DNA of 48,642 nt. Origin: Desulfobacterales bacterium GWB2_56_26 (GTDB lineage Bacteria > Desulfobacterota > Desulfobulbia > Desulfobulbales > Desulfocapsaceae). A program made the position numbers and the translations under genes. The stretch spans positions 17,037 to 65,678 of the forward strand of contig MGTI01000071.1 in the NCBI GenBank assembly GCA_001799365.1, written 5' to 3'. The notes beneath the pieces were generated by a model. That model ran no database searches, was not told the origin of the DNA, and saw only the letters and a program-made list of their open reading frames with translations. Shown here in pieces: positions 4,890 through 12,522 of this stretch (its first letter is position 1; the number at the start of each line of letters is the position of its first letter).

Positions 4890-4908
4890 GCGGGAAGAAT
4901 AAGTATCC

Positions 4909-5427
4909 TCAAGGAAACAGCAACTTGTCCGGGTCAAAGCCCTGCTTCTCGACATCCTGCAGGATCCCTGCGAGAACTTCGGGATGCATCGAAGGGGTGC
5001 GGCTGAGTATCCAGAGATATTTCCTGTTGGGGGTTCCAATCACGGCGTATTCGTACTCCTCTCCCACGTCCATGATCCAGTAGTCTCCCCGGAAAGGCCA
5101 GAAAAATGATACTTTGAGACGGGCGTTGCCGGGGCCAACCACCCAAGCTCGGCCCCTGGCTTCACGCAGGCGGCCATCCTGCTCGTCCCGACAACTGTTC
5201 AAGATATCTACATCGCCATCCGTGCGGGCTTTGTACATGGCTGTGCTGTCCAGGCAGCCTTCCTGGAACGAGTTCGGGTAACGGCCGATCTCGTACCACA
5301 GACCAAGATAACGATCGAGGTCGACATGGGCGACGGTCACGAGCGATGGGGTTTCCGGGGCACCCCCATGTTGGGAGAAACTGCACGAAGTGAGAAGGAC
5401 GATGAGAGCGGCAGTAGCTATTTTCAT
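4909..5427 (-). CDS. blc: Lipocalin family lipoprotein (Blc-like)
   Basis: LLTSC lipobox; VDLDRYLGLWYEIGRYPNSFQEGC, YAVIGTPNRKYLWILSRTPSM are Blc lipocalin signatures. Confidence 0.92.
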   Translation of the reverse strand: MKIATAALIVLLTSCSFSQHGGAPETPSLVTVAHVDLDRYLGLWYEIGRYPNSFQEGCLDSTAMYKARTDGDVDILNSCRDEQDGRLREARGRAWVVGPGNARLKVSFFWPFRGDYWIMDVGEEYEYAVIGTPNRKYLWILSRTPSMHPEVLAGILQDVEKQGFDPDKLLFP

Positions 5428-5500
5428 ATAAATCTCCGATGCAACCCGCTTGGTTTTTGTCTGCTATGCGTGTATGAGGCACGGCCAGAGCAAGATGAGA

Positions 5501-5965
5501 TCATGAAGAAAAATCAAATTGCTTGACTTCCTGAAAGTGGGTTACCAAGTAAATCTGTGTAATCGACACCTCGAACAACGCGCAACCCGGCGCGGCTAAG
5601 AATTCAGTAAGGTGCGGGTGTCTGGCCAAGTAGAGGTTCTGCCCTTCAGCACGAGCAAATCCCGTCGTTTCCCTGGCGGTGCCGAGGATCGTTGCCGCGG
5701 CGGCATTGGTGAAATCTGCCACCTGATTGCTTCTGTTGTCCAGGAGCAGGGATACCTGGGGATTGTGTGCGAGATTCTGCCATTTCCTGGTGGCGCGGGA
5801 GGTGGCGAAATACAGGTTGCGCAAGTCGAGGGAGAAGGCAACTGCCACTAGATTGGTATACGGCGCAGAGCCGGCGGCAGTGGCAAGTACGGCGAGCGGC
5901 TGGCTGTGGCAGAGTTCTTTCAAGCTATTCGGCAGGTTGGCGAAAGTGGTCATAGTCTGTTGCAT
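5501..5965 (-). CDS. Pyridoxamine 5'-phosphate oxidase family (FMN-binding split barrel) protein
   Basis: 154 aa; LAVLATAAGSAPYTNLVAVAFSLDLRNLYFATSRATRKWQNLAHNPQVSLLLDNR. Confidence 0.85.
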   Translation of the reverse strand: MQQTMTTFANLPNSLKELCHSQPLAVLATAAGSAPYTNLVAVAFSLDLRNLYFATSRATRKWQNLAHNPQVSLLLDNRSNQVADFTNAAAATILGTARETTGFARAEGQNLYLARHPHLTEFLAAPGCALFEVSITQIYLVTHFQEVKQFDFSS

Positions 5966-6233
5966 ACCTCTCTGAGCTGGGTTGTCGGAATTTGGTACCG
6001 AGGCACATGAGCCATAATGTGTGGGAGAAGCGGGGGTGAAACAAACGATATCGGCTTTATGGTATCAGGATATACCGTGAATGCAACTTCTGGTCGGAAG
6101 GTGAAAGCGCCGCCATTATCTGAGCCGTTTGAGGTCACGCTCTGTCGTCTGCTATGCTTATTGAATGCCATTCGGCGAAATGAAGGAAGCTGCGGCGATA
6201 CGCTTGACGGTAATTAAAACAAGTGGGGGATAA

Positions 6234-6710
6234 ATGGTACAATATCTACGCACGATCATACAAATAAGCTGTCTATCGAGCATCCTTGCGGCGTGTACCG
6301 GGGAAAGGCCAGACAACCTCGGGGTGCATGGCACCCGGTTGAAAACCTGTCCAGACTCACCCAATTGCGTGTCGAGTCAGGCTGTAGACGTCGGGCACCG
6401 CATAGCACCGCTCGAATTCACCAGCGATCCCGGTCAGGCCTTCGCCCGGCTGAAGCAAATGCTTGCTCGTCGCAATGATACCACAATCATTGAAGAACGA
6501 CTCGGTTACCTGCGCGTTGAATTCCACACCATCCTGTTTGTCGATGATGGCGAGTTCCTGCTGGATGATCAGCGGCGGCTGATTCACACTCGCTCCGCCT
6601 CCCGCCTCGGATACTCGGACCTGGGTAAGAACCGCAAGCGGATGGAGGAAATCCGGCGACAGTTCGTGGTAAAAACTGCATCGACTACCAGTGCAGAGGG
6701 GAAATTTTAG
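6234..6710 (+). CDS. DUF1499 domain lipoprotein
   Basis: SILAAC lipobox; LKTCPDSPNCVSSQA, FVDDGEFLLDDQRRLIHTRSASRLGYSDLGKNRKRMEEIR typical of DUF1499. Confidence 0.88.
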   Translation: MVQYLRTIIQISCLSSILAACTGERPDNLGVHGTRLKTCPDSPNCVSSQAVDVGHRIAPLEFTSDPGQAFARLKQMLARRNDTTIIEERLGYLRVEFHTILFVDDGEFLLDDQRRLIHTRSASRLGYSDLGKNRKRMEEIRRQFVVKTASTTSAEGKF

Positions 6711-11096: not shown

Positions 11097-11610
11097 ATGC
11101 AAACAAACCATATCAAAAACATTGCCATTGTCGGCGCCGGGGCCATGGGGGCGGCTTATGCGGCCATGTTTGCCGATACCGGAGCTTTCTCTCCTTTTTT
11201 CCTTGCCAACGGTGAGCGGTACCGCAGATTTATGGAGAAACCGTTGCGGGTCAACGGGAAAACCTATTCCATTCCAGTCATGCCATTGACCGGTCCGGAG
11301 ACCACCATCCTGTCGGTGATGAACGGCCTGGAAAGTGAAGAGATGGCGCGGCCTGCGGTATCGGAAAAATTAGTCTATGCGATTGCGGTGGGCATCGATG
11401 CGGTACGGGAGGGGGATATTTTTACCTATGCTCGGCCCGGCCGGATCATCTTCGGAGAAGGGACACATAAGGCAGTATCCGGTCGCGTCGTCCGCCTGCG
11501 CGAGGCGCTGAGCCGGGCAGCGATCCCCCATGAAGTACCCGCGGATATGATGCGGATCATGTGGTGAAACATTTATGATCAATGTCGGTATTTGAAGTGC
11601 AAGGCCAAGT
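11097..11610 (+). pseudogene. Ketopantoate reductase (PanE/ApbA family) pseudogene
   Basis: NIAIVGAGAMGAAYAAMFADTG and TTILSVMNGLESEE...YAIAVGIDAVREGDIFTYARPGRIIFGE are family sequence; the region usually between them appears deleted, the frame stops at MRIMW*, and FMINVGI continues in another frame. Confidence 0.72.
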
Positions 11611-11743: not shown

Positions 11744-12034
11744 TCAGAATGAATTAGGTCCACGGGTCATATCCGTCGATTTTCCCGGCTGATCGTCGCT
11801 ATGAACCTGTGTCGGTTTTTGTGGGGATTCACGATCCCTTTGATTGTCGAATCGAGGGGAAACCCCGAACTCCTGCTGGATTGACTGTTGCTGCTCGAAC
11901 TGCTGTTGATCTGTCCTCTCAGGCCGTTCCCGCTGCAATGTTTGATCCTGTGATTGGAGCTGCCCCATGTTTTGACATGCCATGAGCAACCCGCTTGAAA
12001 GAACTATCAAGGAAATAATCAGCTTCTTCATCAT
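11744..12034 (-). CDS. Small Gln-rich lipoprotein of unknown function
   Basis: MMKKLIISLIVLSSGLLMAC signal peptide with lipobox; mature part is low-complexity hydrophilic (QQQFEQQQSIQQEFG); preceded by a c-di-GMP-I riboswitch. Confidence 0.75.
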   Translation of the reverse strand: MMKKLIISLIVLSSGLLMACQNMGQLQSQDQTLQRERPERTDQQQFEQQQSIQQEFGVSPRFDNQRDRESPQKPTQVHSDDQPGKSTDMTRGPNSF

Positions 12035-12063
12035 GTTAAGGGGACGGTCTGTATCGGCAATAA

Positions 12064-12164
12064 AAGAAATGAGGTAACCCTGCTACCTTGTCACAACTTT
12101 TTTAGGGCTGCGATTTAGGCCAGTGGCTTTGCGTCCCCATCTTTCGATCAGGTTTGCTTTTCCC
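12064..12164 (-). ncRNA. Cyclic-di-GMP-I (GEMM-I) riboswitch aptamer
   Basis: Minus-strand sequence AGCAAACCTGATCGAAAGATGGGGACGCAAAGCCACTGGCCTAAATCGCAGCCCTAAAAAAGTTGTGACAAGGTAGCAGGGTTACC contains the GCAAACC, cGAAAg tetraloop, GGGACGCAAAGCC, GCCTAAA receptor and GGTAGC-GGGTTACC elements of the class; a P1 pairing (gggaaaag/catttctt) is possible. Confidence 0.92.
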
Positions 12165-12256
12165 TGTTCAATACAGTGTGCATCATCAACGAAGAGGTCA
12201 ATGGAACGCCCCCCACGAATTCGGTAGCTCTCAATAATGGACTATCTCGGGTAACG

Positions 12257-12360
12257 ATGCTGAGTAAAATCATCTCAGGTTACCAAACAGGCGCAGACAT
12301 CGCCGCCATCGATGCCGCTATAGCAATTGGCTTTCCCTGTGGCGGTGTGCCGAAGGGAGA
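12257..12360 (+). pseudogene. N-terminal fragment of a putative molybdenum carrier (YpsA/LOG-like) protein
   Basis: MLSKIISGYQTGADIAAIDAAIAIGFPCGGVPKG resembles the family N-terminus (KIISGGQTGADRAALDFAI..G.P.GG..PKG); homology ends abruptly just before the tRNA terminator. Confidence 0.6.
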
Positions 12361-12398
12361 CCACACAAAGAACAGGATGTGGACAAATGTGAACAAAA

Positions 12399-12437: not shown

Positions 12438-12446
12438 GGTTTTTAT

Positions 12447-12522
12447 TGGTACCCTCGGCGCGAATCGAACGCGCGACACCAGGATTAGGAATCCTGTGCT
12501 CTATCCCCTGAGCTACGAGGGC
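12447..12522 (-). tRNA. tRNA-Arg (anticodon CCT), CCA encoded
   Basis: Minus strand GCCCTCGTAGCTCAGGGGATAGAGCACAGGATTCCTAATCCTGGTGTCGCGCGTTCGATTCGCGCCGAGGGTACCA folds as a cloverleaf; loop TTCCTAA. Confidence 0.96.

Follow-up and report, generated by a model that had tools for sequence, protein, structure and literature searches.

Riboswitch aptamers are nearly always interpreted as gene leaders. The locus described here, within a window of 48,642 nt (the whole stretch of DNA that was analysed), raises the question of whether this view holds for a GEMM-I aptamer that ends 35–37 nt before the start codon of a small lipoprotein gene. A sequence-only reading had described the pair as a riboswitch controlling the lipoprotein, retained by selection in a decaying region. 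From contig identity we infer that the host is a Desulfobulbales MAG of the genus of Desulfobulbaceae bacterium BRH_c16a. The features discussed below are listed in Table 1.

Table 1 Features of the GEMM-I element and its surroundings (window coordinates)
Feature	Position	Strand	Evidence or detail
cpYpsA-like 5′ remnant, first copy of the direct repeat (83%) on either side of the RNA–lipoprotein segment	11700..11739	+	repeat search
Gln-rich lipoprotein ORF, 96 aa	11744..12034	-	homologue L005 in BRH_c16a; no Pfam match above cut-off
Terminator-like element	12062..12088	-	terminator scan; hairpin AGGUAGC-AGG-GUUACCU 12088-12072, then U tract UUUCUUUU 12069-12062
GEMM-I (RF01051) aptamer	12070..12168	-	cmscan 64.5 bits; pair counts, 8 homologues; position-20 mapping, published numbering
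Aptamer P1	GGG 12164-12162 with CUC 12073-12071	-	
Aptamer landmarks	A12158; C12074	-	equivalents of Vc2 G20 and of C92
Proposed RNA promoter	12173..12201	-	-35 TTGACC 12201-12196, 17-nt spacer, -10-like CACTGT 12178-12173
cpYpsA (PF12694) remnant, copy 2	12176..12379	+	Pfam 28.4 bits (cut-off 26.2), covering only positions 1-36 of the profile
Copy-2 repeat within the cpYpsA remnant	12267-12306		repeat search
tRNA gene, anticodon read CCU (Arg)	12450..12522	-	cmscan RF00005, 63.5 bits

Aptamer fold and position 20

The minus-strand sequence quoted from 12164 lies where it was reported, and cmscan with Rfam 15 confirmed the GEMM-I assignment. The RF01051 match spans the full model (1-87) at 64.5 bits (E 1.9e-10), above the gathering threshold of 35 below which the sequence-only reading would have given up its own call. 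Covariation gave the same membership: pair counts over eight copies of the subclass described below found 96.4% of cells paired and 7 aptamer base pairs changed on both sides, with slid controls reaching at most 45%. The distal stem CGCAGC/GUUGUG was found as described and shows covariation in relatives, and the weak P1 can be drawn as a 3-bp GGG/CUC helix. The window copy keeps every position that is invariant in the subclass, and its P3 is perfect.

The aptamer had also been credited with the canonical c-di-GMP base G, an assignment that we revise. The base used, G12157, is the first paired G of a two-base helix. Position 20 in GEMM-I is the base preceding the two paired bases before AAACC, which is A12158, one base 5′ of G12157; in cmscan it aligns with position 11 of the Rfam model, where a conserved capital G is not matched by the window. 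The published numbering (PMC6274999, PMC9262584 and PMC6456294) maps position 20 to A12158 and so rules out the canonical call. In the structure of the cGAMP riboswitch, A14, the base that sets selectivity, immediately precedes C15, the first P2 base (PMC6274999), and PMC9262584 equates Cd1 G11 with Vc2 G20 and terms it a selectivity factor. GC/CGC versus CC/CGG covariation between the GEMM-I groups of relatives supports the same assignment. Because position 20 is A and not G, the window copy falls outside the canonical c-di-GMP-selective GEMM-Ia type; it has the A20 that marks cGAMP-selective GEMM-Ib.

An A at position 20 is the variant associated with cGAMP or promiscuous binding, and an A20G change in Gmet_0970 was reported to convert it from cGAMP to c-di-GMP (PMC6456294). 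In the present aptamer A20 suggests cGAMP or relaxed specificity, and by itself is no proof of cGAMP binding. The marker of Hypr GGDEF enzymes is Ser at PleD D344 (PMC7288161). Our search for cGAMP synthases covered GGDEF proteins; with an exact pattern allowing S, T, R, C or W, it found 0 Hypr domains against 35 with canonical Asp in five carriers, and every readable GGDEF domain keeps Asp in the host genome, which is ~89% complete. The presence of A20 in genomes with no visible Hypr cyclase calls into question a simple rule equating A20 with cGAMP.

A recurring unit with a predicted promoter and a U tract

Starting from the aptamer fold, A20, the conserved position of the promoter, the U tract, the sharp limits of conservation and the fact that nine of ten loci have no convincing associated gene, we think it probable, though well short of secure, that the window element belongs to a small family of RNA genes that are self-contained, each with its own promoter and terminator. 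A sigma70-like promoter would drive a transcript of ~105 nt, essentially the GEMM-I aptamer alone with A20. The host genome (G000) has three RF01051 copies, and one of these, adjoining mraZ on contig C80, closely resembles the window element. Scanning 84,980 species genomes with a sequence pattern yielded 50 stretches that form two groups. Most are translational riboswitches, in which GGCAAACC precedes an anti-SD (for example GCACCTCC) and, further downstream, GGAGGTGC-ATG; the minority (U-class) has AAAAGCAAAC, a U tract 1-5 nt past the aptamer and no gene immediately after it. A covariance model, R1, built on eight minority copies gave 120-134 bits for five Desulfobulbales copies (the window copy, at 120 bits, lies near the others) and ≤91 for all else in 258 genomes of the class. 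Two more samples added G413 and, in G965 (a genome carrying the LH_M58 sequence), a second copy. The subclass then comprises ten loci in eight Desulfobacterota genomes: G000 and LH_M58 with two each, and BRH_c16a, G015, G089 (whose sequence is that of Desulfobulbus sp. Tol-SR), SURF_4, Nau_4 and G413. An identical Tol-SR stretch in a Mageeibacillus-labelled MAG, which is probably mis-binned, was left uncounted. Since there are only ten loci and several are close kin, locus counts are not independent; some MAG contigs are also short, and that of SURF_4 begins within the element. Both points count against a stand-alone RNA.

In the pattern-scan set, A20 goes together with the U tract: A is found in 8/8 U-class members and G in 40/42 readable others (Fisher p 8e-8, a value that ignores phylogeny). 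The two further copies, L192 and L206, also carry A20. The promoter layout divides the same set, as a -35 box TTGA[CT][AC] starts 43-44 nt before GCAAAC in 7/7 U-class members with upstream DNA and in 0/43 other GEMM-I, and L192 and L206 keep this layout. The -10 of the window copy is weak, with a 2/6 match to TATAAT at spacer 17, which is why a consensus scanner left this promoter uncalled and which we count against the stand-alone reading. When the five Desulfobulbales copies are aligned outward from the aptamer, the 40 nt on its upstream side show pairwise identities of 0.55-0.66 and the first 10 nt on its downstream side 0.66; beyond these, identity drops to ~0.2-0.37. Conservation thus begins at the -35 box and breaks off sharply at the U tract, which argues for the footprint of a small RNA gene and not a coding-region leader.

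At the 3′ end, the sequence-only reading had seen no terminator hairpin before the start codon. A terminator-like hairpin, AGGTAGCAGGGTTACCT-CATTTCTTTT, and its tail do lie upstream of that codon; the hairpin is the aptamer's own 3′ end, the P3 3′ strand refolded. We rejected it as a trait specific to the subclass, as the pairing is equally present in other GEMM-I, including the translational class. In all ten loci a U tract lies within 1-5 nt of the aptamer end, and it is longer and uninterrupted in most but interrupted in the window. Three folds, the aptamer, the P3 3′-strand hairpin and an extended P3, lie within a few kcal/mol of one another, and fold energies fail to separate terminating from non-terminating folds, a further point against a stand-alone RNA. 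Each competing fold sets a helix a few bases from the U tract, which would suit termination with or without bound ligand, and the tract may stop transcription whichever near-equal fold forms.

The same features invite another explanation, in which a terminator-type ON switch has been exapted in the window. The ligand-free 3′ strand would form a terminator (12088-12072 plus U tract), and ligand would let P3 win and allow read-through into the lipoprotein gene. This would fit the near-equal terminator and P3 folds of the window copy (-26.6 and -26.4 kcal/mol) and its interrupted U tract, and there is a precedent in the Geobacter GEMM-I of pilM, a transcriptional ON switch (PMC9262584). We nevertheless regard it as unlikely: the sister loci carry the same RNA with no gene to switch, the hairpin pairing is shared with the translational class, and the lipoprotein gene lacks both a Shine–Dalgarno sequence and the C-terminal tail of its relative.

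No convincing gene stands directly behind the aptamer in the nine other loci (the C80 paralogue and eight elsewhere), and outside the window no convincing same-strand gene was found nearer than ~170 nt. The next gene is convergent in several sister loci. Flanking genes vary by locus (GSDH/mraZ, 4-alpha-glucanotransferase/DUF6901, ArsR-like/sensor kinase and others), and no single gene family is conserved behind the aptamer, the ten loci having differing or no downstream genes. At C80, a TTG-start frame of ~120 aa overlaps the aptamer end or lies a few nt from it. This counts against a stand-alone RNA, but we judged the frame spurious because it runs through a terminator-like hairpin, GATCGACC...GGTCGATC-TTTTT. 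A second terminator-like hairpin stands ~25 nt beyond the C80 paralogue.

The survey also turned up other GEMM-I arrangements. A20 occurs in a few GEMM-I beyond the U-tract subclass (L168, L170, L173 and L198) and so is not exclusive to it. Tandem aptamers with A20 and no U tract are present at L091 (1..2700) and L137 (3500..3900), the latter followed by a short excisionase-like helix-turn-helix ORF. A third GEMM-I group has G at position 20 and GATTGCCAGATA or similar at its end (L001, at G000:C8:40-127, L039, L057, L073 and L076); it sits 70-80 nt upstream of a conserved ~330-aa protein, which at L001 has no Pfam match. Some relatives are rich in GEMM-I, with 24 copies in G042 and 15 in G008, where those inspected are mostly of the terminator type. 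In Candidatus Jettenia ecosi (L103, 5431-5827), two near-identical GEMM-I lie 344 bp apart, each with its own downstream SD. Carriage by phages or plasmids gained no support: viral contigs gave no match to the element, and the one plasmid match was of 45 nt, to the aptamer core, in a Cohnella plasmid.

The lipoprotein gene and the tRNA-Arg site

The ORF downstream of the aptamer was described correctly: it is intact, with a good lipobox (LMAC) and a Gln-rich mature part. Its start codon has no visible Shine–Dalgarno sequence, and Pfam offers only a sub-threshold match to DUF6491. Among 93 family genomes there is one convincing homologue, L005 of BRH_c16a (192 aa, Ka/Ks 0.41); weaker candidates were discounted for low scores and, in some, stops. 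The homologue has a GGAGG SD before its start, adjoins a DUF1499-like gene and lacks the lipobox Cys, reading MAGQ where the window has MACQ. The homologue does not stand behind a GEMM-I element: the 3.2-kb BRH_c16a locus contains none, even at E 5, and no degraded copy was found upstream of the gene. Upstream of the window ATG there is no resemblance to the homologue, and the window ORF stops shortly past the conserved DMTR/DRTR motif and has no counterpart of the Gly-rich C-terminal tail of the homologue. The window ORF is probably a gene copy that is both shortened and displaced and lacks an SD. Compared with BRH_c16a, the window carries its DUF1499 region (4906-6664) in inverted orientation and 5 kb away, which indicates that the window region has been rearranged; two genomes give no direction of change.

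These observations bear on the proposal that a c-di-GMP riboswitch controls translation of the lipoprotein. An above-threshold aptamer does precede an intact ORF with a good lipobox, and in relatives ordinary GEMM-I are found ahead of genes for secreted proteins or lipoproteins, with an anti-SD/SD pair in many cases. However, the window has no SD to sequester and lacks the translational-class anti-SD motif CACCTCC...GGAGGTG, the homologous gene has no GEMM-I, the nine sister copies have no such gene, and position 20 is A. We consider this proposal very unlikely.

Evidence for an integration site comes from the neighbouring tRNA-Arg gene. The element is missing from the orthologous site of two relatives, BRH_c16a and G005, and similarity to both ends at the 3′ end of this tRNA (window 12441-12443). 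In BRH_c16a, a tyrosine integrase adjoins the same tRNA, and the tRNA 3′ half and downstream sequence are copied ~106 kb away, a pattern that an island inserted at the tRNA would produce. A candidate integrative island of ~106 kb, with the integrase and the tRNA 3′ copy at its ends, is probable there (L215, L213; G003:C24:108000-216400). No att repeat of the tRNA was found within the window. A truncated ketopantoate reductase (ApbA) fragment at window 11097-11567 (+) adds to the debris near the element. On the tRNA-Arg evidence, we read the supposed decaying region as an integration hot spot and the RNA–lipoprotein pairing, which was seen once, as a local arrangement; retention of the pair by selection is not supported.

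In such a site, the aptamer and lipoprotein gene might both be debris, the RNA being a decaying, non-functional copy. Two cpYpsA fragments flank the pair, the -10 is weak, the U tract is interrupted, the SD is missing and the orthologous site in BRH_c16a and G005 is empty of the element. All subclass-invariant positions are kept, however, along with the perfect P3 and an R1 score close to that of the other copies, and we hold decay to be decidedly unlikely. On the stand-alone reading, the window copy would be an example that happens to lie before a shortened lipoprotein gene in a tRNA-Arg hot spot. Because the U tract here is interrupted, this gene may receive read-through, and lipoprotein control by that route is possible as a secondary effect. 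What stands of the sequence-only reading is the above-threshold aptamer, its stems and the ORF; the selectivity base and the absence of a terminator do not, the argument from selection is not supported, the lack of a visible SD had been missed, and control of the lipoprotein has become a weak claim.

Comparison with known GEMM-I RNAs

The RNA may be transcribed and bind a cyclic dinucleotide, whether c-di-GMP, cGAMP or both, and could then soak up ligand, the sponge role suggested for merRNA, or act in trans as a small RNA that depends on ligand. Compared with the c-di-GMP-I riboswitches of RF01051, the fold, tetraloop, core motifs and score are alike, and P3, the junction and the ligand-pairing C are retained. 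The differences are an A in place of G at the selectivity position, a predicted promoter and a U tract that flank the aptamer directly, and the lack of a constant partner gene.

Relative to the Geobacter GEMM-Ib cGAMP riboswitches (Gmet_0970/pilM and GSU1761), the two-base helix is GC/GC here, whereas that of the Geobacter structure is CU/GG, in keeping with the published numbering. The shared feature is the A at the position where A20G switches Gmet_0970 to c-di-GMP (PMC6456294). Unlike in those systems, no Hypr GGDEF was found in five carriers and no cytochrome or pilus gene lies downstream.

A GEMM-I RNA that stands alone and has A20 in its pocket would come closest in layout to merRNA of Bdellovibrio bacteriovorus, a 445-nt RNA with massive attack-phase expression that was reported as unconserved beyond Bdellovibrio (PMC3627812). 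Both would be GEMM-I aptamers in non-coding RNAs with no conserved downstream ORF, and the present RNA is predicted, from conservation only, to have its own promoter and end; it would be ~105 nt long and is found in Desulfobacterota, in contrast to the 445 nt of the Bdellovibrio RNA. We tentatively propose, as something slightly short of an even prospect, that these loci represent another lineage of GEMM-I RNAs that stand alone, distinct from merRNA and patchy in Desulfobacterota, with A20, its own promoter and a self-terminating transcript of ~105 nt that would serve as a trans-acting sponge or ligand-gated small RNA. In the literature searched, merRNA is the clearest GEMM-I exception to the gene-leader view, and a promoter–aptamer–terminator unit recurring elsewhere would offer an independent test of whether such RNAs serve cells as sinks for second messengers or as regulators in trans.
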